The notes under the pieces were generated by a model. The model ran no database searches, was not told the DNA's origin, and was given only the letters and a program-made list of their open reading frames with translations. Positions 10,768 to 31,746 of a stretch of 64,000 nucleotides of DNA are shown one piece after another. The stretch comes from Prosthecobacter dejongeii. GTDB taxonomy: Bacteria > Verrucomicrobiota > Verrucomicrobiia > Verrucomicrobiales > Verrucomicrobiaceae. Each line of letters starts with the position of its first letter. Position 1 is the first letter of the stretch. The position numbers were made by a program, and so were the translations under genes. The DNA lies in assembly GCF_014203045.1 (NCBI RefSeq), contig NZ_JACHIF010000013.1:1-64000 (forward strand), written 5' to 3'.

Positions 10768-11770
10768 TTCGCAGCCCTTCTGCGCCTCCAGCATCATCGG
10801 AACCGGCAGCTACATGCCGGAAAAAATCCTGACCAATGACGACCTGTCCAAATTTGTGGACACCTCCGATGAATGGATTACCAGCCGCACGGGCATCCGG
10901 GCACGGCGCATCGCTGCAGATGACCAAGCCACCAGCGACCTCGCCAGTGAAGCCGCCCGCCGCGCCATGGCCGCTGCGAACGTGCAGCCGGAAGACATCA
11001 ATCTCATCGTCGTGGCCACAGTTACGCCAGACATGTTCTTCCCCTCCACCGCTTGTTTCGTCCAGAAAAAGATCGGTGCCAGCAACGCCGTCTGCTTTGA
11101 CATCAGCGCGGCCTGCTCCGGCTTCCTTTACGCCCTGCAAGTCGCCCGTCACTTCATCAATACCGGCAACCGCACCACCGCCCTGGTCATCGGCGCAGAA
11201 AAACTCAGCAGCCTCATCAACTGGCAGGACCGCAACACCTGCGTCCTCTTTGGGGACGGCGCAGGAGCCGTCGTCATCCGCCGGGCCGAAGAAGGCGAAG
11301 ACGCCCCTGGGCGCGTCCTTTCCACCGTCATGGGGAGCGATGGTAACCTGACTGATCTCCTCAAAGTCCCTGGAGGTGCCAGCGCTTGCCCCATCACGCC
11401 TGAAAACGTGGCCAGCCGCCCGAACACCATCCACATGGAAGGCCGGGAAACCTTCAAGCATGCCGTCACACGCATGTGCCAGGCCAGCGAGCAAGCCCTG
11501 GAAATCGCTGGCTTGAAGAAAGAAGACATCGCCATGGTGATCCCCCACCAAGCGAATGCCCGCATCATCACGGCCATCGCCGATCGGCTAGGCGTGCCTC
11601 CTGAAAAAACCTTCATGAACCTGGATCAATACGGCAACACCAGCGCCGCCACCATCCCGGTGGCTCTGGATGAAGCTCATCGCCAAGGCAAAATCAAACG
11701 CGGTGACATCATCCTCCTCGTTGCTTTCGGCGGCGGCTTTACCTGGGCCAGCTCCGTGATCCGCTGGTGA
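10754..11770 (+). CDS. fabH: Beta-ketoacyl-ACP synthase III
   Basis: Starts fatty acid synthesis by condensing acetyl-CoA with malonyl-ACP. The catalytic triad is visible: Cys121 in DISAACSGFLYAL, His in VIPHQANARI and Asn in LDQYGNTSAAT. The ATG at 10754 (MPTPSSQPF) gives 338 residues and overlaps the plsX end by 14 bases; the frame is open further upstream but inside plsX. Confidence 0.96.
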   Translation: MPTPSSQPFCASSIIGTGSYMPEKILTNDDLSKFVDTSDEWITSRTGIRARRIAADDQATSDLASEAARRAMAAANVQPEDINLIVVATVTPDMFFPSTACFVQKKIGASNAVCFDISAACSGFLYALQVARHFINTGNRTTALVIGAEKLSSLINWQDRNTCVLFGDGAGAVVIRRAEEGEDAPGRVLSTVMGSDGNLTDLLKVPGGASACPITPENVASRPNTIHMEGRETFKHAVTRMCQASEQALEIAGLKKEDIAMVIPHQANARIITAIADRLGVPPEKTFMNLDQYGNTSAATIPVALDEAHRQGKIKRGDIILLVAFGGGFTWASSVIRW

Positions 11771-11845
11771 TTACGGCGTATGCATACAATAGTATCTGGT
11801 AGATCACACACACATTAGACACCGGAAACTTGGACATCTGGTCCA

Positions 11846-12565
11846 TCAGTGGCGAGGACCAATGACTATTTTTATAACCCCTTTTGGGGGGCGTATTTCT
11901 TCGTGAGGACTAATTATCAAAGGTTTATATCCAGAAGCGTGAAATGCAGCCAATAGTGCATTGGAAGCTGTGTCTTCCACGAAAGGTATTTTGCCTGGAA
12001 GTTCATCACTTGCAAACGTGATTGCCAAGCCAGATATTGAGTTGGAGAAAAGCAATCCCGCCTCCTGCATCATAAATGTTCGGCTCACATCTTTTAAAGA
12101 CACCCCCTTTGGCATTTCACGCAATAACCACCCAGTCTTAGCTATTTCACCATAAATACTCTCAGCAAACACATAAGACTCCGAATGTTCAGCAGCATAG
12201 ACGATTTGGACTTCCCCAGTTTTCCTACCCTCGAGAGCTTTAGAAAACTCGTTTCCAACAAGACGCCATTTTATTTCTTGTTGTAATCTGACCATTTCTA
12301 ATTCTGCTAAAGCTGCACGTTCTTTAGCCTCCTGCGCTTTTAAATTCGCTTCTGCGATTTGAATTTTAGATTCAGTTTGGTAACGCTCTAATGCTTTCTT
12401 TTTGTTGTCAGAATCCCTGTCTGCAAAATACCAAGCCGCTGCACCTACAAAAGCCAACAGAGCTCCCATAATCACACTAGCAACAGCAAATATTGACGAC
12501 ATTTTCTCAACAAGTTCAGAAGACATAATTTTGGACTGTTTGTGAATATTTGCCTTTTCCACCAT
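11846..12565 (-). CDS. AT-rich orphan membrane/coiled-coil protein
   Basis: A 239-residue protein I cannot name. One membrane helix (about residues 26-47) is followed by a coiled coil rich in Ala, Glu, Lys and Gln (about residues 55-100), then a soluble alpha/beta domain of about 130 residues with no motif I recognise. AAAGG lies eight bases before the ATG, a clear ribosome-binding site. Base composition is visibly richer in A and T than all neighbours, suggesting acquisition by transfer. It lies between fabH and an ECF sigma operon, with no operon partner. Confidence 0.7.
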   Translation of the reverse strand: MVEKANIHKQSKIMSSELVEKMSSIFAVASVIMGALLAFVGAAAWYFADRDSDNKKKALERYQTESKIQIAEANLKAQEAKERAALAELEMVRLQQEIKWRLVGNEFSKALEGRKTGEVQIVYAAEHSESYVFAESIYGEIAKTGWLLREMPKGVSLKDVSRTFMMQEAGLLFSNSISGLAITFASDELPGKIPFVEDTASNALLAAFHASGYKPLIISPHEEIRPPKGVIKIVIGPRH

Positions 12566-12948
12566 CGTTACCTTTCTTGATAAAGAAATAATTTTCTATT
12601 TACCTTCAGTGTAAAATCAAAGTAATAATCTAACTAGTAACGACGCATTTGAATATATGTAAATTACACCACTTCCTCTAAAATGTAATCTTTCTAACTC
12701 GCAATCGAAAGAGGAGGAACTTGGGCCTGCTTCCAGAGCTCAGAACAAAAAAGAGGGTTATTCCTTCTTTCTGGCATTTCGGACAAACAAAAAAATTCCC
12801 TCAAGGTCTTTTCTAGCATATTTCACACCGTCAAATTTCCATTCCTTCGAAATCGCAGAATTTTGATAGCTCATGATGGAAATGTCTGGACTGGAGTCCC
12901 TTTAGCTTTCGTTCGCGTTTCCCTCATAGCCATTTGAACCCGACCAGC
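12566..12948. other. AT-rich intergenic stretch
   Basis: About 380 bases separate the orphan gene from the sigma factor. The composition is AT-rich. Apart from the small minus-strand ORF at 12758-12874, I see no RNA gene, terminator or repeat. Promoters for the two divergent units should lie here, but none stood out. Confidence 0.5.
12758..12874 (-). CDS. Possible 38-residue Lys-rich small protein
   Basis: An open frame starting MSYQNSAISKEWKFDG and ending RNARKKE, in the AT-rich gap upstream of and in the same direction as the orphan membrane protein. The composition (Lys, Phe, Trp, Asp) is protein-like, but there is no ribosome-binding site or homologue I recognise. It could be a remnant of transferred DNA. 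Confidence 0.25.
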   Translation of the reverse strand: MSYQNSAISKEWKFDGVKYARKDLEGIFLFVRNARKKE

Positions 12949-13509
12949 ATGGGCCATGAGTCATCCATTCCCCCATCTGAATCAGGCAGGATTTTGGGGT
13001 CGGCGGGAGAATTTGAGCGACTGCTGGCAGACCACTCTGCATCTGTTCGCCTTTACGTGCGGTCCTTGATGCCAGGTTATGAGGGGGCCGATGATTTGGC
13101 TCAGGAAACCCTGCTTAAGCTTTGGGAAAAACGTTCCCAATTTGTTGCAGGCACTTATTTCAAGGCTTGGGCCTTTCAGATCGCCAAGTTCCTGGTCATG
13201 AATCAGCGCCGCAAACTGGCAAGATCTCCGGTGGTATTGCTGGATGACGAAATGCTGGAGCTGATTGACCGGCGATGGATGGAAACAGAGACCGTGCGGA
13301 TGGAGGGGCATCACTCGGCCCTCAACCAGTGTCTGGAACTTCTGAAACCGGAGGACCGTCACCTTTTGCATGCGCGTTATGCAACCGACACCTCCCTGGA
13401 GACATATGCAGAACAGGTGGGCACACGGCCAGGCACGCTCAAAGCCCGCCTGTTCCGCCTCAGGGATGCCCTCCGTGATTGCATTGACAGCCGCCTTGGA
13501 AATTCATGA
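12949..13509 (+). CDS. ECF-type RNA polymerase sigma factor
   Basis: A 186-residue sigma-70-family protein with region 2 (LAQETLLKLWEKR, then WAFQIAKFLVMNQRR) and region 4 (an HLLHARYATDTSLETYAEQ helix-turn-helix, then TLKARLFRLRDALRDCI). This resembles the sigma factors common in Planctomycetes and Verrucomicrobia. The ATG at 12949 is preferred to a TTG at 12934. The stop overlaps the ATG of the FecR-like gene (ATGA), so sigma factor and likely anti-sigma protein are translated together. It probably controls the lyase/sulfatase genes downstream. Confidence 0.88.
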   Translation: MGHESSIPPSESGRILGSAGEFERLLADHSASVRLYVRSLMPGYEGADDLAQETLLKLWEKRSQFVAGTYFKAWAFQIAKFLVMNQRRKLARSPVVLLDDEMLELIDRRWMETETVRMEGHHSALNQCLELLKPEDRHLLHARYATDTSLETYAEQVGTRPGTLKARLFRLRDALRDCIDSRLGNS

Positions 13510-14930
13510 CTCCCCATCCTCCAGAAGATCCCTTCAAATTGAACCGGGCGCTCGATCAACTGATCGAAGGTAGCCTGACGGCGGAGGAAGCGCAGGAGGT
13601 GCAAGCATGGATGAAGGAGGACCCAACGATCCTCTCTCTCTATCTGGACAAAATGCGCATGGACTCGCTGCTGAAGGATCACGCTTGGCCTGCGAAACCT
13701 AAAGTCGCAAAATGGCGAGTCGCGCCGCGTCAGAGTCTGGCCTGGGCGGCCGCAGCGGCAGTCCTGATCTCTGCACTCGCTCTGCTGTTGCGTTATGACA
13801 AGAGCAGCGGACCGGGCCTTGTAGATAGGACGCCACTGCCGAGTATCCAGTTTTCAGCGGCCTCCGTCTTTGATACCACACTGGCCCGCCTCCCGGATGA
13901 TGGCAGGCTACAATTTGGCGATGGCGTTATCATGAATGACGGCTCGGTCTCCATCCGGCTACCCAGCGGCGTGGAGGCAGTGCTAAAAAGTCCTTCTCGC
14001 TTTGCGATCACAGGCCCCAACCGGCTGAAACTGGACGAGGGCGCAGGGTGGTTCCGCGTGCCTCTGGCGGCGAAGGGATTCACCGTGGATCTCCCTGAAA
14101 TGGAAGTCGTGGATCTGGGAACAATATTCACGGTCAGCGTAAATGAGGGTGACCATCAGGTGCAGGTGGAGCAAGGCTTGGTGGAAGTCCGCCAGCGGCA
14201 AGATGGAATTCCCGTCCAGCGTCTAAAGGTCGGCGAAAAACTAGTTCGGCAGGCGAACCAGCAGACCATCCAAGTGGTGAGCGGCGCATCTCTGCTCAAC
14301 CCAGAAGCCATGACGGAAAAGCCGGAGATCGTCTTCCAGGAATCGCTGGCATCGGTGCCCGATCAGTCTTTCGCTGATAGGCAACCCCTGAAAGGCACTT
14401 GGACAATTCTGAAGGGAGATCCACAAGTCAGCAAAGGACGCTTTGCGGCGAAGTCGAGCTTCACTCACCTCATGGGCCGTTTTACACGCGCCATTGAGCC
14501 CACGGAAAAGGCGGTGATCATGGTCAGCTTTAGGTCCGTCTCTCCAATGACTCTCTTCCATTCCAAAGGATTCGCCGGCATCAGCCTTTTCAACGGTGAC
14601 GGCGAAATGTTTTTCTTCGGAGACAAGTCACGGAACTCCTACTCGTGGGAGTTCCTGGTCTATGGAAAAAACTACTGGCGGCCCGGAAGTCCCAGACGGG
14701 CCTATGACCTAGCCATCCAGGGCAGTGAAGAGACTTTCACTCTACGTTACAGACAGCGTAACGGAGCCTTCGAAATCTACCGTGGCTGGGGGGTGCAGGG
14801 ACTTCCACTTCTACGGGGAGTGACGGATCCGGGCCTGCGTTTTGATGGTGTGCGGGTGGCCAATGGCATGGGCGGAGATTTCTCATTTGAGGACCTGCAA
14901 GTCTCCGTTGTCAAAGATACGGCGGAGTGA
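13506..14930 (+). CDS. FecR-domain transmembrane protein, putative anti-sigma regulator
   Basis: A 474-residue protein. The cytoplasmic N-terminus (about 1-75, with LTAEEAQEVQAWM) looks like the sigma-binding part. One membrane helix spans about residues 78-96. A FecR domain follows (LPSGVEAVLKSPSRFAITGPN, then VDLGTIFTVSVNEGDHQVQV). The C-terminal 180 residues are a beta-rich region that may be a ConA/LamG-like glycan sensor. Coupled to the sigma gene by ATGA. I infer that sensing of extracellular polysaccharide releases the sigma factor. Confidence 0.85.
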   Translation: MTPHPPEDPFKLNRALDQLIEGSLTAEEAQEVQAWMKEDPTILSLYLDKMRMDSLLKDHAWPAKPKVAKWRVAPRQSLAWAAAAAVLISALALLLRYDKSSGPGLVDRTPLPSIQFSAASVFDTTLARLPDDGRLQFGDGVIMNDGSVSIRLPSGVEAVLKSPSRFAITGPNRLKLDEGAGWFRVPLAAKGFTVDLPEMEVVDLGTIFTVSVNEGDHQVQVEQGLVEVRQRQDGIPVQRLKVGEKLVRQANQQTIQVVSGASLLNPEAMTEKPEIVFQESLASVPDQSFADRQPLKGTWTILKGDPQVSKGRFAAKSSFTHLMGRFTRAIEPTEKAVIMVSFRSVSPMTLFHSKGFAGISLFNGDGEMFFFGDKSRNSYSWEFLVYGKNYWRPGSPRRAYDLAIQGSEETFTLRYRQRNGAFEIYRGWGVQGLPLLRGVTDPGLRFDGVRVANGMGGDFSFEDLQVSVVKDTAE

Positions 14931-15031
14931 TCCGGAGGTCAGCGCCGACTACTCTGCAGTGCTCCGAATTTTTTTGGAGAAGCTGTGCAACCGAATGGCG
15001 GTTCAGAACATTTGCGGTCAACCCAACCGCT

Positions 15032-17035
15032 ATGAGAACCCTTTGCTCAGTCGCCTTCGTCATTCTCTTTATCCTACCAGTCCGGGGCGAACCCTCAGGA
15101 CAGGAGATCACCGCACGCCAGGACCGATCCCGCATCCTCACAGCCGCAAAGGAGGCACTAAAGATGGCGCCCGTGAGCATCACCCAGCACCGCTCGCCCC
15201 TCAGCGAAGGGCGGCCTAACGAGTTTTTCTCCATGAGCGACTACTACTGGCCGGATCCTGAGAAACCGGACGGCAAACCTTACGTCATGAGGGATGGTCA
15301 ATCGAATCCAGGGAACTTCAACCAACACCGCGAAACCCTGATGGCCATGCGAGATGCGACCTCCGCTCTGGCTGCAGCCTTTGCACTGACGCGGGATGAA
15401 CGCTATGCGAAGAAAGCAGTAGAGATGCTGAAGGTCTTTTTCCTGGATGAAGAAACACGTATGCACCCCAGCCTGGATCACGCGCAGGCCATCGTGGGCA
15501 AGGCGACACCGGATCGCGGAACTGGGCTCATTGATAGCCTGCATCTAGTGGAGGTGCCGCTGGCCGTGCTGACGCTCCGGCCTTCCAAGGCGATGGAGCC
15601 TGCGATCTTCGATGGTCTGAGGCAATGGTTCGCGGATTACACATCCTGGTTTGTCTCCAACTCCAAGGGCAAGAATGAGGCGAAGGCCAAGAACAACCAT
15701 GCGGTGGCCTACTGGTTTCAAGTCGCCGCTTTTGCCACACTCACCGAGGACAAGAAACTGCTGGATGAGTGCCGCCGCCAGTTCAAGGAGGTCTTTGTGA
15801 CGGTGCAGATGGCCACGGATGGCGGCTTCCCCCTAGAGCTAGGCCGCACCAAACCTTATGCCTATTCGATCTTCCAGTTGGATAACATGACGGGCCTTTG
15901 CCAGTTGCTGTCCAATGAGTCTGACAACCTCTGGACCTTCACCACTCCAGATGGCAAATGCATGGAGAAGGCTGTCGCTTATCTCTATCCTTACTTGGCA
16001 GATAAATCTTCCTGGCCCCTGAAGCCGGATGTCAATGCCTGGGAAGGCTGGCCGGTGAGGCAGCCTTCCTTGCTGTTTGGAGGCATCGCCTTTCACGAGG
16101 ACAACTACCTAAAGTTGTGGCGGGATCTCAAACCCGACCCGACGGACTTTGAAATCCGACGTAACAATGCGATCACGCAACCGCTGCTGTGGACGACGCT
16201 GTTCGATCATTCCTCAGCGACTCCCTCGCCGAAGAAAATCCGCGCCCATCATGTGTTTCAGCCTAACCAGAAGGTGATCTTCGAGGATGATTTTCACAGT
16301 GACTCCATTGATCGCTGGAACATCTCTGAGGATGACCGCTACGCCCTCCCCACGCCGTCACCGGAACGCATCCAAGTGGTGGATGCACCTGATCTGCCGG
16401 AAGGGGCCAAAGCCGTGCGTTTTGTCGTGAAGCGTGCGCCTAACTCCTTTCGCTCGGAGATTTCACTGCCTCACGAGGAGGGGTTTCAAGAGCGCTGGTA
16501 TGCTGCACGCATCCTGATTCCAGAAGACTGGATTTTTGATCCTTCGAAGGCGAGTGACATCGTTCTGCAGTGGCACGGAATTCCCGGCAACTGGAAGCCC
16601 ACACATCCCAACTTGGCCATCTACGTCGCCAATGATCGATGGTCCATCAATCAAAGCTACGGCTCTCCGCAACAAGGCCCCACCCGCCACAGTGAACACC
16701 TGGAAGAGACTGTAAGCAGAGGCCAATGGGTGTCGTGGATCATCCATGCTAAATGGTCCCCTGGGGCTGAAGGGTTCCTGCAGATCTGGAAGGATGGAAA
16801 GCTGGTTTTCGATAGGTCTGGGCCAAACGTATATGGCAGCATCGGTGTGGAATACACCCCCTACATGAAGACGGGTATCTACCGCCCCGAATGGCATACG
16901 GACACGGATAACAAGCGGCAAGCCTTCGAGGCTGAAAAGACCGACATCACGAGCAAAACTGTTTACGTCACCGACATCAAAATCGGCAGTGGAAAGGCGA
17001 GCCTCAAAGATTTCATCGTCCCAGCCAAACCCTGA
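15032..17035 (+). CDS. Secreted two-domain polysaccharide lyase (alginate-lyase domain plus heparin-lyase-I/PL20-like domain)
   Basis: A 667-residue protein. The ATG at 15032 gives a signal peptide (MRTLCSVAFVILFILPVRG); a GTG at 14927 overlapping the previous stop would add 35 residues without a signal. Domain 1 (about 40-395) fits the Alginate_lyase family: SDYYWPDP, LDHAQAIVG, the catalytic-type NNHAVAYW (Asn221-Asn222-His223), LELGRTKPYAYSIFQLDNM. Domain 2 (about 415-660) fits heparin lyase I/PL20-type lyases: SFRSEISLP, DIVLQWHGIP, VSWIIHAKWSPGAEG, YFK-like GIYRPEW. The substrate is probably a uronic-acid polymer, and the sulfatases next door suggest that it is sulfated. Neither specificity can be fixed from sequence. 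Confidence 0.82.
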   Translation: MRTLCSVAFVILFILPVRGEPSGQEITARQDRSRILTAAKEALKMAPVSITQHRSPLSEGRPNEFFSMSDYYWPDPEKPDGKPYVMRDGQSNPGNFNQHRETLMAMRDATSALAAAFALTRDERYAKKAVEMLKVFFLDEETRMHPSLDHAQAIVGKATPDRGTGLIDSLHLVEVPLAVLTLRPSKAMEPAIFDGLRQWFADYTSWFVSNSKGKNEAKAKNNHAVAYWFQVAAFATLTEDKKLLDECRRQFKEVFVTVQMATDGGFPLELGRTKPYAYSIFQLDNMTGLCQLLSNESDNLWTFTTPDGKCMEKAVAYLYPYLADKSSWPLKPDVNAWEGWPVRQPSLLFGGIAFHEDNYLKLWRDLKPDPTDFEIRRNNAITQPLLWTTLFDHSSATPSPKKIRAHHVFQPNQKVIFEDDFHSDSIDRWNISEDDRYALPTPSPERIQVVDAPDLPEGAKAVRFVVKRAPNSFRSEISLPHEEGFQERWYAARILIPEDWIFDPSKASDIVLQWHGIPGNWKPTHPNLAIYVANDRWSINQSYGSPQQGPTRHSEHLEETVSRGQWVSWIIHAKWSPGAEGFLQIWKDGKLVFDRSGPNVYGSIGVEYTPYMKTGIYRPEWHTDTDNKRQAFEAEKTDITSKTVYVTDIKIGSGKASLKDFIVPAKP

Positions 17036-17074
17036 ACACCCGCACCTTTGCAATCCCTTGCCTAGCACCCTTCC

Positions 17075-18406
17075 ATGTACACCACCAACACCTTGTCACG
17101 CCGCCATTTTCTCAAAACAGCCGGAACGGGCCTCTTTGCTGGGCCCTTCATCACCCGGGGGCTTCGCGCTGCCTCGCCTAACGGGAAGCTTCGCCACGCC
17201 GCCTTCGGTGCCGCCGGCATGTCCTGGAGGGATATTGTTTCCCTAGCTGACCATCCCATGCTGGAACTGGCGGCTGTCTGTGATGTCGATACGCGGCAGT
17301 TTGCCAAGGTGAAGCAGCAGTTTCCCAAAGCCCGCCTCTACCAAGACTGGCGCGAGATGCTGGAGAAGGAGGGGGACAGCATTGATTCCGTCAATGTCTC
17401 CACCCCTGACCATATGCATGCCCCGATGGGGCTGCGATCCATGGAAATGGGCAAGCATGTCTATGGCCAAAAACCCCTGGCACAGACCCTGCATGAATGC
17501 CGGAAAATGATGCTGAAAGCCCGCGAGCAAGGTGTGATGACCCAGATGGGCATTCAGGCCTCGTCAGACTTTACGGAACGTCATGCGGTAGAACTGGTGC
17601 ACCTCGGACTCATCGGCAAAGTGAAGGAAGTGCACACGTTCTCCCACAAAAAGTGGGGCGATATGCAGCCCGTTCCTTCCGATGCCAGCCCCGTGCCTGG
17701 AGAGCTGGACTGGAAGCTGTGGCTAGGCTCTGCCAAGGACCGTCCTTACATTGACGGCTATTACCATCCCAAAGAATGGCGGAAACGCCGCGACTTCGGG
17801 ACAGGCACTCTAGGAGACATGGGCTGCCACATGTTCAGCGGCTGGTTCCGCGCCCTGGATCTGGCTGCACCTATCGCCGTCAAATCCATCGGAGCAACAC
17901 CCGCCAACGCTGTAAACTGGGCCACAGACTGCATCGTGGAATACACCTTCAAAGGCACCGCCCGCACAGAAGGTGACACCGTTAAAGTCACTTGGTATGA
18001 CGGCGATGCGCGGCCGCCCGCCGAGATCATGGCCTTGGTGTCCCCCTCCAAGTTCCCAGAGCAAGGCAGCATCTACATCGGTACGGAGGGGGTGCTCCTC
18101 CACCAACACACCAGCACGCCAATGCTATACCCTCGTGAAAAGTTCAAAGGCTTCCGTTATCCAAAACTGGAGCCGCGGAATCACTGGTTCGATTTCGTGG
18201 ACTGCTGTTTAAAAGGAGGCTCTGCGCGGCCCTCGGCCCATTTTGACTATGCAGCCCCTCTCACTGAAGCCGTGCTGTTGGGTTGCATCGCCACGGTCTT
18301 TCCGAAAGAGAATTTGGTCTGGGATGCCGAGGCGCTGAAGATTGCCAATAACGAAGCGGCTCATGGCATGGTCACACGCGAATATCGTCCTGGCTGGGAA
18401 ATGTAA
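17075..18406 (+). CDS. Tat-exported Gfo/Idh/MocA oxidoreductase
   Basis: A 443-residue NAD(P)-dependent oxidoreductase. A twin-arginine signal (SRRHFLKTAGTG) opens it. The Rossmann part runs HAAFGAAGMSW...AAVCDVD, and the usual EKP motif appears as GQKPLAQ, with Gln instead of Glu. The C-terminal half has the GFO_IDH_MocA beta-sheet domain (GTLGDMGCHMFS, where the His is the usual catalytic-region residue). Members act on sugars, inositols or uronates. Its place between lyase and sulfatases suggests processing of the released sugars in the periplasm. Confidence 0.88.
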   Translation: MYTTNTLSRRHFLKTAGTGLFAGPFITRGLRAASPNGKLRHAAFGAAGMSWRDIVSLADHPMLELAAVCDVDTRQFAKVKQQFPKARLYQDWREMLEKEGDSIDSVNVSTPDHMHAPMGLRSMEMGKHVYGQKPLAQTLHECRKMMLKAREQGVMTQMGIQASSDFTERHAVELVHLGLIGKVKEVHTFSHKKWGDMQPVPSDASPVPGELDWKLWLGSAKDRPYIDGYYHPKEWRKRRDFGTGTLGDMGCHMFSGWFRALDLAAPIAVKSIGATPANAVNWATDCIVEYTFKGTARTEGDTVKVTWYDGDARPPAEIMALVSPSKFPEQGSIYIGTEGVLLHQHTSTPMLYPREKFKGFRYPKLEPRNHWFDFVDCCLKGGSARPSAHFDYAAPLTEAVLLGCIATVFPKENLVWDAEALKIANNEAAHGMVTREYRPGWEM

Positions 18407-18444
18407 GTCGTTTACAACTTTGGTTATTCCTTTGTACTCACCTT

Positions 18445-19980
18445 ATGAAATCTGCCAGGGCTCTCAGCTTGTTCATGATCATGATCCACATCGGCTGGGT
18501 CTTCGCACCCAGCTCCAGCGTTCTAGCTGAAGAAGCTCGAGCTCACCCAAATGTGCTGTTGATCGCGGTAGACGATCTCAATGACTGGATCGGCTGCATG
18601 AAGGGGCATCCTCAAGCGAGGACACCTAACATGGACCGACTGGCCGAGCGAGGAGTGCTATTTACCAATGCCCACTGTGCGGCCCCGGTTTGCCTGGCCT
18701 CCCGTACCGCCCTATTCAGCGGGCGTTATCCAGATCAAACCAGGGTTTTCAGCAACTGGGGGAAGACCAAGGGCAAGCCCCCAGCCAAGTCATTGCAAAT
18801 GCCGCTGCACTTCTCTGGTTCGGGTTACGAAACGCTCGGTACAGGCAAACTTTACCACTCAGCGTCTCCCGAATTCTTCGATGACTACTACGATACGGAA
18901 AACCGCTGGAGCCCCTTCACGCAGGAGCAGGCCCGATACACGGATGAGGAACAGCCCAGCAAAGGCAGCGCAAACCCGAGGCATGTGATCAAGGGCGGCC
19001 CCGGCGGTCACGACTGGGCGCTGCCACTCAACGGACTGCCGAGCGAACGCAATGCGACGGGCAAAGAAGGCGAATCGTTTGATTGGGGACCTGTTGATGT
19101 GAATGACGAAGAGATGGGGGACACACGAGTAACCAACTGGGCCATGACGAAATTGGAAGAACCCAGAGCTAAACCGTTCTTTCTTGGTGTCGGTTACTAT
19201 CGGCCTCACATTCCCCTCTTTGCTCCACAGCAGGACTTTGATGCCCTGCCACCCGTTGAAGCCATTGAACTCCCTGCACATAGGCCTAACGACTTGGAGG
19301 ACCTGGGTAAGGCGGGAAAGAAATTCGCCCTGGATCCTATCACCGCAGGCACCCACAAGCTGGTGGCCGATCATGATCAATGGAAACAGGCTGTGCGAGC
19401 CTATCTGGCCTGCATCACTTATGTGGACCGGCAGATCGGACGGCTGATTTCAAAACTGGAGGCCAGCCCTCATGCTGACAATACCTGGATCATCCTGTTC
19501 AGCGATCATGGCTGGCAGTTGGGCGAAAAGCAGCACTGGGGCAAATGGACAGGCTGGAGGGCATCCACACGCATACCCCTCATCATCGTCCCCCCGGCGA
19601 ACTTTCAAGCCGCACACGGACAGATCTGTGCCGAACCCGTTAGCCTGATGGATCTGTACCCCAGCTTAATCGAAGTCTGCCACCTGAACGAAAAGAAAAG
19701 CATCGTGGGTCAGTCATTGGTCCCTTTGTTAATGAAACCGGAAAAAGCCACGGGCCGAGCTGTCGTCACCGCCTTTGATCCTGGCAATCATTCACTCTCC
19801 ACCCGGGACTGGCGTTACCTTCGTTATGATAACAACGAAGAAGAGCTTTATGATATCCAGGCGGATCCGCATGAATGGCACAATTTAGCATCAGATCCGA
19901 GCTACCAGACCAAACTTCTCGAACTGCGGAAAAGCCTCGACGAAGAACTGGAGAAAATCCGTACCACTGACACGCCATGA
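18445..19980 (+). CDS. S1-family sulfatase (iduronate-2-sulfatase-like)
   Basis: A 511-residue exported sulfatase with an N-terminal signal peptide. The metal-binding pair Asp43-Asp44 lies in IAVDDLNDW. The formylglycine motif is Cys83-Leu-Ala-Ser-Arg (CLASR), and ILFSDHGWQLGEKQHWGK supplies the distal metal ligands. The LNDW and HWGKW features are those of iduronate-2-sulfatase-like enzymes. It removes sulfate esters after conversion of Cys83 to formylglycine. It overlaps the next sulfatase by ATGA. Confidence 0.92.
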   Translation: MKSARALSLFMIMIHIGWVFAPSSSVLAEEARAHPNVLLIAVDDLNDWIGCMKGHPQARTPNMDRLAERGVLFTNAHCAAPVCLASRTALFSGRYPDQTRVFSNWGKTKGKPPAKSLQMPLHFSGSGYETLGTGKLYHSASPEFFDDYYDTENRWSPFTQEQARYTDEEQPSKGSANPRHVIKGGPGGHDWALPLNGLPSERNATGKEGESFDWGPVDVNDEEMGDTRVTNWAMTKLEEPRAKPFFLGVGYYRPHIPLFAPQQDFDALPPVEAIELPAHRPNDLEDLGKAGKKFALDPITAGTHKLVADHDQWKQAVRAYLACITYVDRQIGRLISKLEASPHADNTWIILFSDHGWQLGEKQHWGKWTGWRASTRIPLIIVPPANFQAAHGQICAEPVSLMDLYPSLIEVCHLNEKKSIVGQSLVPLLMKPEKATGRAVVTAFDPGNHSLSTRDWRYLRYDNNEEELYDIQADPHEWHNLASDPSYQTKLLELRKSLDEELEKIRTTDTP

Positions 19981-21455
19981 CAAAGTTCCTGTTTTTGTTT
20001 TTGGGGTCCCTAGCGTTTCTGCCCGCACAAGCGGCACAGCCCGCCCGCAAGCCTAACATCCTTTGGCTCATTGGCGAAAACCTGTCCCATGATCTGGGCT
20101 GCTATGGCGCAAAAAATGTCCACACCCCCAACCTCGACCGCTTGGCGACTGAAGGCGTGCGCTATAGCCGCGTCTTTTCCACCAACCCGGCATGTGCTCC
20201 GAGCCGCTCCGCCTTCTTCGTTGGCATGTATCAGACTTCGACCGATACACATCCCATGCGCTCGCACCGCACCGATGGCTTCAAGCTGCCTGAAGGTGTG
20301 AGGCCTGTGACGCATCGCCTTCGAGATGGAGGGTATTTCACAGCCAACATCAAGACCGTGGGTAACGAGAGTGTGGGCACGGGCAAACTGGACCTCAACT
20401 ACGTCAACGAAGGCCCCATTTACCATGAAAACTCCAGCCAGTGGGAAACACTGAAAACCCGACAGCCCTTCTTCGCTGTCGTGAATGCAGAGGAAAGTGA
20501 GTACGACATCTATGATCGCAAGAGCGCCGAAAAAGACAGGGTCGAGTGGGTGGGGGAGCGCATCCACGCCCAGCATGCCAAGCCAGAGACCGTCACACCG
20601 CCGCCATACTATCCAGAGCACCCCGTAGTGCGACAAGAGTGGGCACGATATTTAAATTCAGTCTCCGGCATGGACCTGCGCTTTGGCAAAGTGCTGGCCC
20701 AGTTGCGACACGATGGTCTTGAAGACGATACGATCATCATCTTCTTCGGCGACAATGGCCGCCTGGAACCACGCGGCATCCACTGGTGCTATGACAATGG
20801 TTTGCGAGTGCCCATGATCATCAAATGGCCCAAGAACTTCCCTGCCCCGGACCAAATCAAACCGGGAACCGTGGATGACCGCATTCTCAGCTTGATTGAT
20901 GTGACGGCCACCACCCTTGCATTAGCAGGACAGTCGAAACCTCTTCTGATGCAGGGGCGTGTTTTCCTGGGAGAGCAGACCGAGGCCCCCCGCACATTTG
21001 CCTTTGCCGCCCGCGACCGCATTGACGAGACTCAGCAGCGAATCCGCTCCGTGCATGACGAATGCTATCACTATATCCGCACCCTTTCGACTGGCCCCAC
21101 CTTTTCATCCCTGAACCGTTACAAGGAAAAGTGTTTTGCCATCATGCCTGTGATGCATGGCCTCCATGCACAGGGGAAACTCACTGGACCGGCACTGGAA
21201 CTCATGCAGCGGACCGGTCCCTGTGAAGAGCTCTACAACACCCAGATGGACCCGCACGAGGTGAAGAACCTTTTGACCTCACAGGAGCCCGCCGATCGCG
21301 AAGCCTTGACCCGACTTCGCGCTGCACTCGATACCTGGATGACAGAAACCGGAGATCGAGGAGCCATTCCAGAACCCGCAGAGGTCACCGCCCCGTTTGC
21401 CCAAGAGATGCATCAATGGTTCGGCACGCCATCCTGGGCACTGCCAGCCAAATAG
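19977..21455 (+). CDS. S1-family sulfatase, variant metal site
   Basis: A 492-residue exported sulfatase (signal MTKFLFLFLGSLAFLPAQA). Formylglycine motif Cys73-Ala-Pro-Ser-Arg and distal IIIFFGDNGRLEPRGIHW are present. The usual Asp-Asp pair near the N-terminus is replaced by Glu34-Asn35 in LWLIGENLSHDLGCYG, a variation I associate with one planctomycete-type sulfatase branch. ATGA overlap with the preceding sulfatase shows they are made together. The last gene of the locus, ending before a bidirectional terminator. Confidence 0.92.
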   Translation: MTKFLFLFLGSLAFLPAQAAQPARKPNILWLIGENLSHDLGCYGAKNVHTPNLDRLATEGVRYSRVFSTNPACAPSRSAFFVGMYQTSTDTHPMRSHRTDGFKLPEGVRPVTHRLRDGGYFTANIKTVGNESVGTGKLDLNYVNEGPIYHENSSQWETLKTRQPFFAVVNAEESEYDIYDRKSAEKDRVEWVGERIHAQHAKPETVTPPPYYPEHPVVRQEWARYLNSVSGMDLRFGKVLAQLRHDGLEDDTIIIFFGDNGRLEPRGIHWCYDNGLRVPMIIKWPKNFPAPDQIKPGTVDDRILSLIDVTATTLALAGQSKPLLMQGRVFLGEQTEAPRTFAFAARDRIDETQQRIRSVHDECYHYIRTLSTGPTFSSLNRYKEKCFAIMPVMHGLHAQGKLTGPALELMQRTGPCEELYNTQMDPHEVKNLLTSQEPADREALTRLRAALDTWMTETGDRGAIPEPAEVTAPFAQEMHQWFGTPSWALPAK

Positions 21456-21459
21456 GCAT

Positions 21460-21503
21460 AAAAAAAGCGCCAACCGCTGCTTTCAGCGAATTGGCGCTTT
21501 TCT
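21460..21503. terminator. Bidirectional terminator between sulfatase and tmRNA
   Basis: AAAGCGCCAA (21464-21473) pairs with TTGGCGCTTT (21491-21500); a small inner hairpin CGCTG-CTTT-CAGCG sits in the loop. A-rich and T-rich flanks on both sides suit the plus-strand sulfatase and the minus-strand tmRNA. Confidence 0.8.
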
Positions 21504-21507
21504 AAAA

Positions 21508-21860
21508 TGGTGGAGGCGAGGGGAATCGAACCCCTGTCCGAATAACCGTAAGTTGGAGCTTCTACATGTTTATCCGGTTATTTAATCTCGATGAGAGGTC
21601 TTCAACTGGCAGAATACCTTTCACCCAGCGTCCTGTTGAATCTCGCTTTCGACCCGGTCGCCCGGTCAGCCAGCCAGCCTGGTAGTGTCATCGTCGAGGC
21701 TACCAGACATTGCCTCGAAGATGTTGCGGTGCTTAGGCCGCAAGAGCGAGCTCAGAAGAGTTTGCTTTTATTTGTTTGATCCGAAGATTAACGAGGCCAA
21801 CGAATCATCCTCGACATGCCACCCCGACCGCAGACTACCCGTCGAAACCAGGACGCCCCC
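21508..21860 (-). ncRNA. ssrA: tmRNA (one-piece)
   Basis: About 353 bases. The 5' end GGGGGCG (21860-21854) pairs with CGCCTCC (21518-21512) to form the acceptor stem, followed by A and an encoded CCA (21510-21508). The T-arm GGGGTTCGATTCCCC region and the 5' sequence CCTGGTTTCGACGGGT are diagnostic. The tag reading frame lies at 21765-21733: resume codon GCA, encoding ANSSELALAA and then TAA. It rescues stalled ribosomes and marks products for proteolysis. A weak -10-like AATACT ends five bases before the 5' end; no convincing -35 was seen. Confidence 0.97.
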
Positions 21861-23650: not shown

Positions 23651-23923
23651 TTACTCCACATCTCCAAAGCCGGAAAGGACGAGTTCCTCCAAGTCTGCCA
23701 TGGCAGCCTCGGCATCCACACCTTCCGTTGTTAGCTTGATCACTTCGCCGCGGCCAGCCGCCAGCATCATGAGCCCCATGATGCTTTTGCCATTCACGGG
23801 CTCTTCGTCTTTTTCCACCCAGACGTCGCACTTATATTTGCTAGCCCTCTTAACAAATTGCGCCGCAGGACGGGCATGCATGCCCATCTTGTTTCGGATG
23901 GTGAGGTCTTTACTGAGAGTCAT
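23651..23923 (-). CDS. ptsH: HPr phosphocarrier protein
   Basis: Ninety residues with both regulatory sites: His16 in GMHARPAAQF (phosphorylated by enzyme I or its equivalent) and Ser47 in GKSIMGLMML (target of HPr kinase). Located 24 bases downstream of hprK on the same strand. No sugar-specific PTS transporter is nearby, so it probably serves a regulatory rather than sugar-uptake role. Confidence 0.94.
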   Translation of the reverse strand: MTLSKDLTIRNKMGMHARPAAQFVKRASKYKCDVWVEKDEEPVNGKSIMGLMMLAAGRGEVIKLTTEGVDAEAAMADLEELVLSGFGDVE

Positions 23924-23947
23924 GCGGGTGGGTTGGCTAGGCGCGTA

Positions 23948-24916
23948 TTAACCTATCTGGTCGTCCGCCATCTTTTTCAACAATCTTTGATCAAACTCTA
24001 CTGCGCTGTTGTAGCCAAAGGTGCGCAATTTGTAATTTAAGGCCGCTAATTCGATCAAACCCGCCACGTCGCGGCCTGGGGCCACTGGAATATCCACTTT
24101 GGCGATGGTCATTCCCATGACCTCAGTCGTCTGATTTTCCATGCCTACTCGCTCCAGGTCATTGGATTCCTGGAGGTGGACGAGATTCACTGCTAAATCC
24201 AGCCTTTTGCTCATGCGGACAGACCCCACCCCGAAAAGGGCGGCTACATTGAGAATTCCGAGGCCACGAATTTCAATCATGTTACGGGTCATTTCGGGGG
24301 CAGAACCCACAATTTCACGTTCTTCGACGAGGCGTAAGCGCACGGCATCGTCCGCCACGAGGCTGGCACCGCGCTGCAAGAGCCCAATGACACTTTCACT
24401 TTTACCACAGCCACTTTTCCCCTGCACCAGAACGCCAATGCCCTGCACATCCACCAGGCACCCGTGCACGAGCATGGTGGGGGCAAAGGCCCACTCCAGC
24501 TTGATGGTGGCTGCATTGATGAATTTCATGGTGATCATGCTGGTCTGGAAAACGGAAATGCCGGCTTCATTCGCTATGGCTACCAATTCCTCACTCAGAC
24601 GATGTCCACGGGCCACGATGAGGCAGGGAATCTCCCAACTGCACAATTGGCTGAAGCGGGCGGCTCGCAATTTAGGCTCCAGTCCCTCCAAAAAGGAATG
24701 CTCAGAATTCCCGATGATCTGCACCCGTTTGTAAGCGAAATAGGTGAAAAACCCCGAAAGGGCAAGGCCTGGCCGATTCACCGAAGGCTCTGAGATCTTG
24801 CGTTTGAAGCCCGCATCGCTGCCGACCAAACGCAGCTTCAATGCCTTTTCGTTGGTTCTGAAAAACTCCTCCACCGTGATGGCGGAGGGACGTTTCATTT
24901 TTGAAGACGGACTCAT
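23948..24916 (-). CDS. hprK: HPr kinase/phosphorylase
   Basis: A 322-residue bifunctional enzyme that phosphorylates and dephosphorylates HPr on serine. Walker A GKSGCGKS at 166-173, the catalytic VADDAVRLR after it, and the family signature EIRGLGILNVAALFG are all present, as is the N-terminal domain. The ATG at 24916 (MSPSSKMKRP) is chosen; ATG at 24898 is possible. Paired with ptsH. Confidence 0.94.
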   Translation of the reverse strand: MSPSSKMKRPSAITVEEFFRTNEKALKLRLVGSDAGFKRKISEPSVNRPGLALSGFFTYFAYKRVQIIGNSEHSFLEGLEPKLRAARFSQLCSWEIPCLIVARGHRLSEELVAIANEAGISVFQTSMITMKFINAATIKLEWAFAPTMLVHGCLVDVQGIGVLVQGKSGCGKSESVIGLLQRGASLVADDAVRLRLVEEREIVGSAPEMTRNMIEIRGLGILNVAALFGVGSVRMSKRLDLAVNLVHLQESNDLERVGMENQTTEVMGMTIAKVDIPVAPGRDVAGLIELAALNYKLRTFGYNSAVEFDQRLLKKMADDQIG

Positions 24917-24982
24917 GGCTGAACATTTTAGCGGGAGAATGAACCAGCCCAAGTAGAATCCTGGATTTTGCGTTCGTGCTTT

Positions 24983-26806
24983 TTAGAGCTGGCGACCAAA
25001 CTGCCAATGAGTAGAAGCTTCACCTTTACCTGTCAGTTCGATGAATTGGATCTCCAGATCCGACAGGGTTCCTGCCGGAGTGATCCGCAAATGAATCAGC
25101 TTTCCTTGGATGGGCAGTGGCAGCTTTACCTCCTGCCAATCTGTGCCAGCAGGCCACTCAAAGGAGGTTTGATTCGCTGGGGTGAAGTCCACTTCCGCTT
25201 TCGTCCTCCAGCTTACCGTTGCAGTCCCTCCTTTCCGTGCTCGCGCTCGCAGAGTGAGTGTGACCGGGCCTGGAACGGAGAGACCTGGGCGTGTGATGAA
25301 GACACGGGAAGCTTTAGCCCCCCTGCCCTGTGGGATGATTCGCAGCCCCGTCTCTGTTTCTTCAAGACTGCCATTTCGGCAAATCCAGCCTTGCACGCTT
25401 CCTGGTTCTGCGGCTGTTGCTTTAGGAACCACTGGTGCCAAAGCCGACTTTACATGATCTGCAAAGAAAACCACATCTTGAGGATGCAGGGGTTCAGCAG
25501 CTCCAGGACGTTTTAAGGTCTGACTCCAAGCTTTGAGTTTTACATCCAACCGAGCGGCGATTTCTGGATGCTTGTCTATGAGATTTTTCGTCTCGCCAGT
25601 GGGCACAGAAACATTGAAAAGAAAGGTCTCCTTGCCCCCCAGATCAATCAACTTCCAGGGGTGCTCCAGCACAGCGGCTTGGCTGCGCCAACGCCAAAAA
25701 AGAGCTTCATGGGGAGATGCTTGGGTTTCTCCTAGAAGGTAAGGCATAAGATTCACCCCATCCAGTGCTTGGTCATGAGGCAGTCCAGCCAAGGCCACGG
25801 CAGTCGCTGCCACGTCGAGGTTCATCACCGGCTGCTCATACACTTTTCCCGCTGGAATTTGGCCAGGCCATGCCGCGACAAAAGGCACCCTGACACCGCC
25901 ATCTGTCAGCATGCCTTTTTCACCCACCAAGGGGTCATTCAGAGAACCATTCCACGCTCCACGTTTAAGCGGAGCCCCATTGTCTCCGATAAAAAAGATC
26001 AGTGTGTTTTTCTCGGCACCCATCTCCTTGAGCTTCGTCCGCAGTCGCCCGATGCCGTCATCCATCGCGGCGATCATTGCCAAGGCCTGACGACGTTCCT
26101 TCGGCAGATGTGTGGGTGTCTTGGCATACCAGGGTTCCGGTGACTCCAACGGCACATGAGGCGCATACCAAGCAAGGTAAAGGAACCAAGGCACCTCCGG
26201 CTTCGCCACCCTTCGATCCAGGAAACTCAGTGCGGCCTCCGTCTGCACCGTGATGCGAAAACGATCATCCAATACCAATCTTGGCGCACCCTCAAAGGGC
26301 TGTCCGTCGAGTCCATGAGAGGCATAATACTGGCGCATCTCCCCACGCCAGTATTCATCAAAACCGTGCCTGTGCGGCATGTGGTCAGGCAAGATGCGCA
26401 GGGTCTTTGGACCATCTTTTTTATTCCCTAGATCCAGATGCCATTTGCCACACATGCCGGTGACATAACCTGCCTGTTTTAGCCTCTCTGGTAGAGTCAG
26501 CACATCTAAAGGTAGCGGTCCCTTGTTATTATCATCCACTCCAAAACGATTTTGGTGAGTGCCTGTGATCACCCCTGCACGGGAAGGCACACACTGTGGG
26601 GCGCTAACATAGCCACGAGAAAAACGTACTCCATCCCTCGCAAGTTGGTCCAGGTGAGGCGTTTTAATATCTGGGTCCACCCCTTGCAGCCCTAGATCCG
26701 CCCAGCCGTGATCATCGCTGTAGATCAGCAGGACATTTGGAGCCGCATCAAGACCATGATGAAAACTGATGAGTCCAATGAGCACAAATAAAACAATCGC
26801 TTTCAT
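24983..26806 (-). CDS. S1-family sulfatase with C-terminal beta domain
   Basis: A 607-residue exported sulfatase. Asp31-Asp32 (YSDDHGWADLG), formylglycine motif Cys72-Val-Pro-Ser-Arg, and IFFIGDNGAPLKRGAWNG are visible. After the sulfatase fold (to about residue 450) comes an extra region of about 140 residues of beta strands (VTLTLRARARKG, LIHLRITPAG) that may bind carbohydrate. Last gene of a minus-strand block of three sulfatases, DUF1501 and DUF1549/1553. Confidence 0.9.
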   Translation of the reverse strand: MKAIVLFVLIGLISFHHGLDAAPNVLLIYSDDHGWADLGLQGVDPDIKTPHLDQLARDGVRFSRGYVSAPQCVPSRAGVITGTHQNRFGVDDNNKGPLPLDVLTLPERLKQAGYVTGMCGKWHLDLGNKKDGPKTLRILPDHMPHRHGFDEYWRGEMRQYYASHGLDGQPFEGAPRLVLDDRFRITVQTEAALSFLDRRVAKPEVPWFLYLAWYAPHVPLESPEPWYAKTPTHLPKERRQALAMIAAMDDGIGRLRTKLKEMGAEKNTLIFFIGDNGAPLKRGAWNGSLNDPLVGEKGMLTDGGVRVPFVAAWPGQIPAGKVYEQPVMNLDVAATAVALAGLPHDQALDGVNLMPYLLGETQASPHEALFWRWRSQAAVLEHPWKLIDLGGKETFLFNVSVPTGETKNLIDKHPEIAARLDVKLKAWSQTLKRPGAAEPLHPQDVVFFADHVKSALAPVVPKATAAEPGSVQGWICRNGSLEETETGLRIIPQGRGAKASRVFITRPGLSVPGPVTLTLRARARKGGTATVSWRTKAEVDFTPANQTSFEWPAGTDWQEVKLPLPIQGKLIHLRITPAGTLSDLEIQFIELTGKGEASTHWQFGRQL

Positions 26807-26844
26807 GAGTTTTCGAAATCTAGGCTAACCATCTTTACTTCAAA

Positions 26845-28743
26845 TCATGGCTTCTTGTACGGCAGCCATACTTGCAACACCTTGCCATCGCCCCCCATTA
26901 GAGAAAGATTGGAAATCTCTACCCTGCCCTTTCCCTGAGCGGGATCGAGCCGCAGAGAATGGAGACTCTTCACCGGTAGCTGAACAGACTGCTCATGCCA
27001 TTCACCGTCAGGTTTCCCTAGCAAAGGCACTGTGCGCTCTTTGTGGAAAGGCTGCCCTTGAATAGTGGTGTAATAAATCAAAGGCTGCCCTTTGGCCGTG
27101 CACCGCCACCGGATCTTCACCGTCATGGAATCATGCTTACCTTGAGGCACGAGTGTGGTCGCCAACCAGGGATCTCCTCCTGTGCAGTCGATGATCAGCG
27201 CGCCCTCGGGCGTGAGCTCCAGCTTCGCATGCTCGCTCGATTTCCAGCCGGCGAACACACGCCCTTTCGCAAAAGGTTCACTCTTACGCTGGTAGGCTGG
27301 ATTAAGCTGCGGCACCACGGCTTCCGTGCGCTTCAAATAATCGCTGATCAGTCTATTGAGGTCTGAAACCAACTCGGGCATTTCTGCCGCTAGATTTTTA
27401 GTTTCCCCCACATCCTCTGCCAGATTATAAAGCTCCAGTCGATCACTCCCATCCTCAGACGCCGCAAAAAAACGTATCAGCTTCCAGTCTCCACGTCGAA
27501 CCCAGGTGCTCGGTAGAAAACCCTCAATATCCGATCTACCACCATGGGGAAAATGACAGAAAATGGATTCACGCTCCACCTTTCCGCCCTTCATTGCGGA
27601 CGCGATACTCACACCATCTAGAGGCTGCCCTTCCGGGGACTTTAAGTGGCATAGCTCCACCAAGGTGGGGAAAAAATCCACACTTTGCACCACCTCAGCA
27701 CTCTGACTGCCTGGCTCCACATGGCCAGGCCAGGCAATGAGTAAAGGCACCCGTGTGCCGCCTTCATAATTACTCGCTTTACCGCTTCGGAAAGGGGCAT
27801 TGCTAGTCACAGGCACATTGGAATAACTGCTGTTTTTACCCATCGCTTCTTTCGGCACATTGTGCCACGCGCCATTGTCGCTGGTGAAAACCACGAGCGT
27901 TTTTTCACTCAAGTTCAGCTCATCCAAAGTTTTTGTTAGGCGCCCTACGGCCTCATCCAGACTGCGAATCATACCAGCATACATGGGATTACGCTGACCG
28001 CTGTTTGGGTTGGCATGTAGCGCAGCTTCTGTGATGTAGTCTGCTTTGGCCATCCAGGGAGAGTGCACGCTGAACGCCCAGTAGTTGAGAAAGAATGGGC
28101 GATCCTTGTTCTCACGCATGAATTTCACGGCCTCTTCGGCCATGCGGTCTTCGATGTGGTCCCCAGGACTACCTTCATTCTTCCAGAAGGCCCAGGGAGC
28201 AAAGTAGCCATTGCCCCCCCCTGGCCCTGGTCCAGGTGTATGAGGCAGATCCACGTCAAAACCCTGCTCCAGAGGCGAATAAGGAGCGGGTCCAAGATGC
28301 CACTTGCCAAAATGTCCCGTGCGATAACCTGCCTGCTTCAAGAGCTCTGCAAGGGTCACATACTCCGTCCGCATGCGTGTCACGGATTCCGCGCCCAAGA
28401 CCCTCATTTGGGCCCCGCCCTTCATCAGCCCCTTTTCTAAAATCACCTGCGGCACATGACCAGCTGGCGCTGTAATCCCCGTGCGGGCAGGTGCCATGCC
28501 TGTGAGGATGCTGCTGCGAGTGGGGGAGCACAAGGGGCTCGCCGAGTAGGCTTGGGTAAAAAGCATGCCTCGTTTCGCCAATGCATCCAGGTGAGGAGTT
28601 TGATGAAAGGTGCTGCCATAACAGCCGAGGTCCTTACCCCCTAAATCATCAGCGAGAATGAATACAATGTTAGGCCGGACCTTCTCTGCGGCCTGAGCGA
28701 CACCACCGGCCAACAAGGAGATGAGAACAAGAAGAAACTTCAT
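26845..28743 (-). CDS. S1-family sulfatase with C-terminal beta domain
   Basis: A 632-residue exported sulfatase (signal MKFLLVLISLLAGGVAQA). Metal-binding Asp32-Asp33 in ILADDLGGKDLGCYG, formylglycine motif Cys72-Ser-Pro-Thr-Arg, and VVFTSDNGAWHNVP. The Thr in CSPTR is a tolerated variant. A C-terminal module of about 130 residues (MTVKIRWRCTAKGQ, SLHSLRLDPAQGKGR) parallels that of the neighbouring sulfatase, suggesting a related accessory domain. Confidence 0.92.
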   Translation of the reverse strand: MKFLLVLISLLAGGVAQAAEKVRPNIVFILADDLGGKDLGCYGSTFHQTPHLDALAKRGMLFTQAYSASPLCSPTRSSILTGMAPARTGITAPAGHVPQVILEKGLMKGGAQMRVLGAESVTRMRTEYVTLAELLKQAGYRTGHFGKWHLGPAPYSPLEQGFDVDLPHTPGPGPGGGNGYFAPWAFWKNEGSPGDHIEDRMAEEAVKFMRENKDRPFFLNYWAFSVHSPWMAKADYITEAALHANPNSGQRNPMYAGMIRSLDEAVGRLTKTLDELNLSEKTLVVFTSDNGAWHNVPKEAMGKNSSYSNVPVTSNAPFRSGKASNYEGGTRVPLLIAWPGHVEPGSQSAEVVQSVDFFPTLVELCHLKSPEGQPLDGVSIASAMKGGKVERESIFCHFPHGGRSDIEGFLPSTWVRRGDWKLIRFFAASEDGSDRLELYNLAEDVGETKNLAAEMPELVSDLNRLISDYLKRTEAVVPQLNPAYQRKSEPFAKGRVFAGWKSSEHAKLELTPEGALIIDCTGGDPWLATTLVPQGKHDSMTVKIRWRCTAKGQPLIYYTTIQGQPFHKERTVPLLGKPDGEWHEQSVQLPVKSLHSLRLDPAQGKGRVEISNLSLMGGDGKVLQVWLPYKKP

Positions 28744-28767
28744 GATGAATGGAAAAAAAATGACGAA

Positions 28768-31725: not shown

Positions 31726-31746
31726 GATCTGGATTCCTCTAAAAGG

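Follow-up and report, generated by a model that had tools for sequence, protein, structure and literature searches.

A sigma/FecR pair heading a lyase and sulfatase gene unit in Prosthecobacter dejongeii as a candidate glycan-sensing system

The finding of an extracytoplasmic function (ECF) sigma factor gene and a FecR-type anti-sigma factor gene directly ahead of polysaccharide-degrading genes in Prosthecobacter dejongeii raises the question as to what this pair senses and which genes it controls. The locus lies in the first 64,000 nucleotides of contig NZ_JACHIF010000013.1 (assembly GCF_014203045.1; this whole stretch is hereafter called the window), where six genes form a unit at positions 12949-21455 of the + strand. 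We consider it fairly probable that these genes are an operon, induced by its substrate, for breaking down a sulfated polysaccharide rich in uronic acids, and that a sigma/anti-sigma sensor spanning the membrane switches it. This reading builds on gene content, gene order, conservation as a unit, domain architecture and ectodomain exchange, all of which were computed. The unit contains the following features:

12949-13509, + strand: ECF sigma factor of the Sig-70_gvs1 (Rhodopirellula/Verrucomicrobium) subfamily (TIGR02989; alternative start TTG at 12934)
13506-14930, + strand: FecR-type anti-sigma factor (PF04773, 29.9 bits; hydropathy; structural models)
14310-14927, + strand: putative glycan-sensing ectodomain of the FecR protein (relatives above 290 bits in 8 of 288 genomes of the order)
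15032-17035, + strand: secreted two-domain polysaccharide lyase, Alginate_lyase (PL38-like) plus Polysacc_lyase (PL20-like) (PF05426, PF14099)
17075-18406, + strand: Gfo/Idh/MocA oxidoreductase with a twin-arginine motif (PF01408, 59.1 bits)
18445-19980, + strand: type I sulfatase 1, CLASR motif (PF00884, 154.4 bits)
19977-21455, + strand: type I sulfatase 2, CAPSR motif (PF00884, 117.4 bits)

Conservation of the unit and its enzymes

All six genes are present in identical order in two more species, represented by genomes G056 and G064, as revealed by the gene-order comparison that a first-pass annotation of this DNA had proposed. The DNA identity between the P. dejongeii unit (G000) and that of G056 is 76% over 8,531 bases, and with G064 it is 75-77% in two pieces; the G064 lyase open reading frame (ORF), at just 419 aa, is too short for the second domain. 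When the six flanks of these three units (3.9 to 7 kb each) were compared, none matched another at E 1e-5. A conserved six-gene order within non-matching flanks indicates that the unit is inherited as a module, in agreement with its earlier description as a self-contained, sigma/anti-sigma-led unit. A megablast search of the unit against plasmids gave no match. Close relatives of the window sigma factor lead the units in G056 and G064 and also related ones in G027 and G128. In G128, which belongs to another genus of the family, the genes are sigma, FecR, two-domain lyase and sulfatase 1, and in G027, of the same genus, they are sigma, FecR, another gene, a sulfatase, a single-domain lyase and the oxidoreductase. 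Genome G005 contains a sigma-FecR pair whose FecR protein has a different C-terminus, followed by a PL20-like domain that stands alone and by a sulfatase closely related to sulfatase 1; its sigma, FecR, lyase domain and first sulfatase genes overlap by 4 bases each.

The coordinates and strand of all six window ORFs had been given correctly by the first-pass annotation, which also described the sigma and FecR genes as translationally fused through an ATGA. The ATGA overlap of 4 bases (13506-13509) is present, and it couples two separate genes rather than fusing them. The two sulfatase genes are likewise coupled by a 4-base overlap (19977-19980), and the remaining intergenic gaps are 101, 39 and 38 bases. 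The lyase ORF reaches the FecR gene only when it is started at GTG 14927. The start with a signal-peptide-like sequence is ATG 15032, 101 bases past the FecR stop, which rules out translational coupling of FecR and lyase from the GTG.

Both domains of the lyase were recognized by Pfam (PF05426, 238.3 bits; PF14099, 117.6 bits). Among solved structures, the lyase is most closely related to 3nfv and 8bdq, which are named alginate lyase, and to 2zzj, a glucuronan lyase; we take the first two to be PL38 and the last to be PL20. Unlike these solved relatives, the window protein joins two lyase domains. The histidine that is changed in entry 9fi1 aligns with alanine in the window lyase and with glycine in 3nfv, and because this histidine is replaced, the specificity need not follow that of 8bdq. 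The oxidoreductase matches GFO_IDH_MocA (59.1 bits), carries SRRHFLK near its N-terminus and has PDB entry 8tdf as its best solved relative; against NF058561, the glycoside 3-dehydrogenase model, it scores 269.9 bits, under the cut-off of 750. Both sulfatases combine PF00884 with a C-x-P/A-S-R motif of the formylglycine (FGly) type, CLASR in the first and CAPSR in the second. The best solved relatives of sulfatase 1 are 6hhm, presumably linked to ulvan, and then choline-sulfatase and iduronate-2-sulfatase. Those of sulfatase 2 are S1_8 sulfatases, including 9bb9 (S1_8A, 268 bits), which PMC12549532 interprets as a galactose-2-sulfate 2-O-sulfohydrolase. A Pfam scan detected no glycoside hydrolase (GH) among the six proteins of the unit. 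The two predicted uronic-acid lyase domains together with the two sulfatases point to a sulfated polyuronide, a glucuronan-like or ulvan-like glycan being the likeliest candidate substrate; family-level similarity is insufficient to settle the exact glycan.

The putative sensor protein and the exchange of its ectodomain

The sigma factor scores above the NCBIfam cut-off for TIGR02989 (158.7 vs 124.55 bits), and in our sample a sigma ORF lies directly upstream of 61 of 67 FecR ORFs. The window FecR protein starts with three predicted helices (residues 9-58), for which the full-length model has a block predicted local distance difference test score (pLDDT) of 67-85 over residues 1-50. These are followed by one hydrophobic segment from near residue 77 (hydropathy 2.3), the FecR domain at residues 145-227 (PF04773, 29.9 bits vs a Pfam cut-off of 24) and a C-terminal lectin-like domain at about residues 269-474. 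FecR was the sole match of this protein in the Pfam scan at E 0.01, and no RsgI domain was found. A Gly-Thr pair in the FecR domain (G205 and T206 in the window protein) is invariant across the 60 FecR proteins described below, and Pseudomonas FecR proteins reportedly cleave themselves at such a pair.

The C-terminal domain of the window protein matches no Pfam family at E 0.01, and a PDB sequence search with the sensor profile gave a best E of 0.82. In the full-length model the C-terminal half has a block pLDDT of about 19-29, and it was excluded from the fold search. The domain was represented by a model of it alone, built from two sequences, which is a beta-sandwich with a mean pLDDT of 58 and a predicted template modeling score (pTM) of 0.65. 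In VIA-align 2, galectins, sialidase lectin domains, calreticulin and legume lectins are among its best matches, with Z up to 10.6 (root-mean-square deviation 3.0 over 144 residues). Based on the VIA-align 2 result, and not on Foldseek, we assign the domain with moderate confidence as a lectin-type beta-sandwich. Several observations weigh against this assignment. Other beta-sandwiches, namely glucanases, an amylase inhibitor and a neurotoxin-complex protein, score nearly equally in VIA-align 2; lectins predominate among the Foldseek matches, but their TM-scores are 0.3-0.4; and the mean pLDDT of the model is just the 58 given above. Furthermore, profile comparison of the window sensor domain with LamG and CBM96 domains gave probabilities of 0.7% and 0.3%, so that kinship with either is unsupported by sequence. 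A shared lectin fold by itself is no demonstration of glycan binding.

We analyzed 60 FecR proteins, 55 from fetched regions, which were hand-picked from the listed FecR matches, mainly in less fragmented genomes, and five from the window genome; many of them are mutual orthologs, so the counts do not represent independent events. Among the matches listed, alignments of the non-orthologous FecR proteins of the genus are confined to query residues 3-293, with the C-terminal domain (269-474) mostly uncovered. Judged by these alignments, the anti-sigma/FecR half is common to the FecR homologs of the genus and the C-terminal half is exchanged. The Pfam scan found FecR in all 60 proteins, Laminin_G_3 in 35, CBM96 in 16, Glyco_hydro_6 in 1 and Pentaxin in 1. 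With local profiles, 35 proteins were of the LamG kind and 16 of the CBM96 kind, 0 of both and 9 of neither, the last including the window protein and the GH6 protein. The C-terminal half thus matches a lectin, carbohydrate-binding or glycosidase family in 52 of the 60.

The GH6 protein is encoded in G016 (L079:6597-12903, - strand), where a sigma gene is followed by a FecR-GH6 fusion (GH6, 288.5 bits) and then by a gene, overlapping that of the fusion, which encodes a GH6-CBM2-GH5 cellulase. The GH6 domain of the FecR protein retains the aspartate that is alanine in PDB entry 6k55. This match of sensor and enzyme, seen in the sequences, is our best evidence that an ectodomain may report the substrate. 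The first-pass annotation had suggested the beta-rich C-terminus of the FecR protein as the glycan sensor; the exchange of carbohydrate-type ectodomains and the lectin-type modeled fold support that idea, while the window domain itself has no family match.

The window contains a second sigma/FecR pair at 48334-51774 (- strand), followed by a gene for a thioredoxin-like/PDZ protein. Its FecR paralog (49701-51257) matches Laminin_G_3 with 68.2 bits.

Distribution of the pair and the lyase, and the surroundings of the unit

The joint occurrence of sensor and lyase was surveyed in 288 genomes of the order, with thresholds of >290 bits for the sensor and at least 72% identity for the lyase. Strong relatives of the C-terminal domain were found in 8 genomes and of the lyase in 9; seven genomes have both, one has the sensor only and two have the lyase only (Fisher 9e-12, uncorrected for kinship). 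To place the pair in a broader setting, we considered the 38 sigma-FecR pairs that a picker of non-overlapping ORFs detected in 60 fetched regions, excluding regions where the sigma ORF was missed. A same-strand sulfatase, PSCyt, DUF1501 or oxidoreductase gene follows 14 of the 38, compared with 18 of 285 control gene pairs from the same regions (p 1e-6, orthologs not thinned); the oxidoreductase accounts for one pair.

In the same sample, PSCyt/PSD1 and DUF1501 genes are led by sigma/FecR in 10 of the 38 pairs (L006, L007 and survey loci). Pfam offers no function for these genes.

Part of the survey speaks against a dedicated link between the pair and the catabolic genes. None of the sought families stands behind 24 of the 38 pairs, and a lyase follows 0 of 38. 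Nine loci of family f2 with distant relatives of the sensor were read (L144-L150, L169 and L170); PSCyt/DUF1501 genes come next in three of them, and a lyase in none. In addition, the sensor FecR proteins of G457, a one-contig genome, are separated from the lyase by megabases, and G276 has sensor FecR and lyase on different contigs, not adjacent. It is possible that the pair senses another signal, such as envelope or nutrient stress, with the catabolic genes being passengers or one of several targets in trans. The sampled pairs of the genus that precede PSCyt/DUF1501 genes (10/38), nothing recognized (24/38) or a lyase (0/38) would fit such a role, as would the separation in G276 and G457. Against it stand the tightness of the unit, whose genes are coupled and whose flanks do not match among three species, and the lectin, carbohydrate-binding or glycosidase ectodomains in 52 of 60 homologs, and on balance we consider this alternative unlikely.

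The lyase was followed in the opposite direction, from 43 loci with a lyase homolog, under the rule that an opposite-strand ORF of at least 200 aa ends the gene run. Nine loci (the window, L037, L038, L039, L045, L046, L047, L124 and L154) are led by a same-strand sigma gene without an opposite-strand gene in between, and in all nine the sigma factor is followed by a FecR or short FecR-like protein. Another 15 are not led in this way, and 19 are undecided because the same-strand run meets the stretch or contig edge without a sigma gene. At the 15 loci, out of 24 decidable ones, an opposite-strand ORF precedes any sigma gene, and L152 has a sigma-FecR pair beyond it; this again weighs against the proposed link, and the lyase is not generally tied to a sigma/FecR pair. 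Enzymes transcribed from their own promoters, with the sigma/FecR adjacency being incidental, would be compatible with these 15 loci, and the gaps of 101, 39 and 38 bases in the window unit allow some promoter room. This explanation is nevertheless very unlikely in our view, given that three species keep the gene order although their flanks do not match, and given the succession of 4-base overlaps from sigma to first sulfatase in G005. Taken together, the two surveys describe the pair as a recurrent operon leader in the group and the lyase as an enzyme used in several settings, their union being lineage-specific.

One of the sigma-led loci, L038, encodes a GH2-PL38-like fusion (10976-14590, - strand; Glyco_hydro_2 domains plus Alginate_lyase) in an operon opened by a sigma factor and a short FecR-like protein. 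The latter matches no Pfam model at E 0.05 and was caught by the local FecR profile.

A search for a shared promoter motif, as suggested by the first-pass annotation, was made upstream of sigma genes and gave no clear motif. A gapped 4+4-mer count on six sigma upstream regions yielded no pattern common to at least four of the six, a result that also counts against our interpretation. Among 2,782 distinct patterns, one occurs in three of the six sequences, and 4 of 100 single-base shuffles likewise reach three; an alignment of the sigma upstream regions showed no clear promoter motif either. Between window positions 10000 and 25000, 6 consensus promoters were found vs 7.9 expected by shuffling, and 17 predicted terminators vs 16.0. 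Downstream of the unit lie two further features:

21463-21501, no strand assigned: hairpin terminator between the operon (+) and the tmRNA gene (-) (folding energy of 21455-21515)
21508-21860, - strand: tmRNA gene, convergent neighbor outside the unit (ARAGORN, tag ANSSELALAA)

The predicted folding energy of 21455-21515 is -22.4 kcal/mol on the + strand and -27.2 kcal/mol on the - strand, where the stem enters TTTTTTT. With the tmRNA gene on the opposite strand and the T-run on its side, this is a hairpin between two convergent genes. The strong terminator claimed for the end of the unit is therefore real, but it is common to both genes and better oriented for the tmRNA; a private terminator of the operon is ruled out by the convergent gene and the T-run on the - strand.

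Just past the tmRNA gene, an HPr gene adjoins an HPr kinase gene (23651-24952, - strand; 109.6 and 199.1 bits). A second degradative cluster follows at 24983-34209 (- strand), with genes for three sulfatases (scores from 151 to 198.3 bits), for a DUF1501 protein (30277-31725) and for a PSCyt1-PSCyt2-PSD1 protein; no sigma/FecR pair was seen next to this cluster.

Proposed mechanism and comparison with known systems

For the unit we infer glycan binding, sigma release, control of the operon and the substrate. The FecR protein would span the inner membrane, its N-terminal three-helix domain holding the ECF sigma factor, with the FecR domain in the periplasm and the C-terminal lectin-like domain binding uronic-acid oligosaccharides. 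Ligand binding would lead to sigma release, probably via cleavage of the FecR protein; this step is proposed by analogy with RsgI (PMC12203970). The released sigma factor would then transcribe its own operon. The secreted two-domain lyase may cut the chain, the two sulfatases may remove sulfate esters and the Tat-exported oxidoreductase may act on the freed sugars. There is no transporter gene in the six-gene unit. Where an outer domain resembles an enzyme or lectin for one glycan, the substrate of the operon might be predicted from the sensor, and such sigma/anti-sigma pairs would offer swappable glycan biosensors.

FecI/FecR pairs occur in Bacteroidetes glycan loci as well, and the first-pass annotation had excluded a locus of that type on account of missing SusCD and TonB receptor genes. 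This claim holds: SusD_RagB (PF07980), the sole SusD model tried, has 0 matches in the genome, and of six TonB-receptor plug domains (contigs C2, C3, C4, C6 and C9) none is on the window contig, C13. On the missing SusD_RagB match and the lack of a TonB receptor on C13, we reject a role of the pair as regulator of a Bacteroidetes-like polysaccharide utilization locus.

The literature was searched for comparable sensors. He et al. 2017 (PMC5615132) described verrucomicrobial sulfatases near putative pectin lyases, pfam13385 proteins, GHs and PSCyt genes, and suggested degradation of sulfated polysaccharides. The words 'sigma' and 'FecR' are absent from its main text, whereas in our set the anti-sigma factor itself carries pfam13385, as seen in 35 of 60 FecR proteins. 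A text search of PMC6388578, PMC4807772 and PMC8857213 gave nothing on point about sigma/FecR sensing, and the literature reached contains no description of substrate sensing without SusC/D in Verrucomicrobiota, which include sulfated-polysaccharide degraders. No account of FecR combined with a lectin, CBM or GH domain as a substrate sensor was found in the open-access papers searched, a weak negative since subscription papers lay outside the search.

The unit shares with FecI/FecR signaling an ECF sigma gene followed by an overlapping FecR gene, as well as the N-terminal helices, the single membrane segment and the FecR domain. In classical cell-surface signaling, a TonB-dependent receptor elsewhere in the genome would signal to FecR, for which the FecR domain and the six plug domains would provide the parts. 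We regard this as highly improbable for the window pair, because contig C13 carries no TonB receptor and the C-terminal half is a separate, lectin-like domain, replaced by LamG, CBM96 or GH6 in homologs. Unlike in FecI/FecR systems, this lectin-like, CBM or GH C-terminus could bind the ligand itself.

The closest parallel is the SigI/RsgI system of Clostridium thermocellum, in which, according to PMC12203970, a single-pass anti-sigma factor senses extracellular polysaccharide through a C-terminal CBM or GH domain. Sensing of this kind has until now been familiar mainly from clostridia that degrade cellulose. The same source describes several SigI/RsgI pairs with different sensors in one genome and an RsgI with a GH10 domain. 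Both systems combine a sigma factor with an anti-sigma factor bearing a C-terminal outer domain, of a putative carbohydrate-binding kind in the window protein, and the FecR-GH6 protein of G016 parallels the GH10-bearing RsgI known from that text. They differ in that here the sigma factor is of the ECF type (TIGR02989), the backbone is FecR, the host is a diderm and the pair sits directly on the enzyme operon. The individual parts are already known. The proposal that Verrucomicrobiota possess a class of modular glycan sensors, with a TIGR02989-like ECF sigma factor, a FecR backbone and exchangeable ectodomains (lectin, CBM or even an entire glycosidase), and with a separate catabolic operon under each pair, seems to us evenly balanced between true and false; if correct, a diderm phylum would have arrived independently at the SigI/RsgI principle, with no part played by a TonB receptor.

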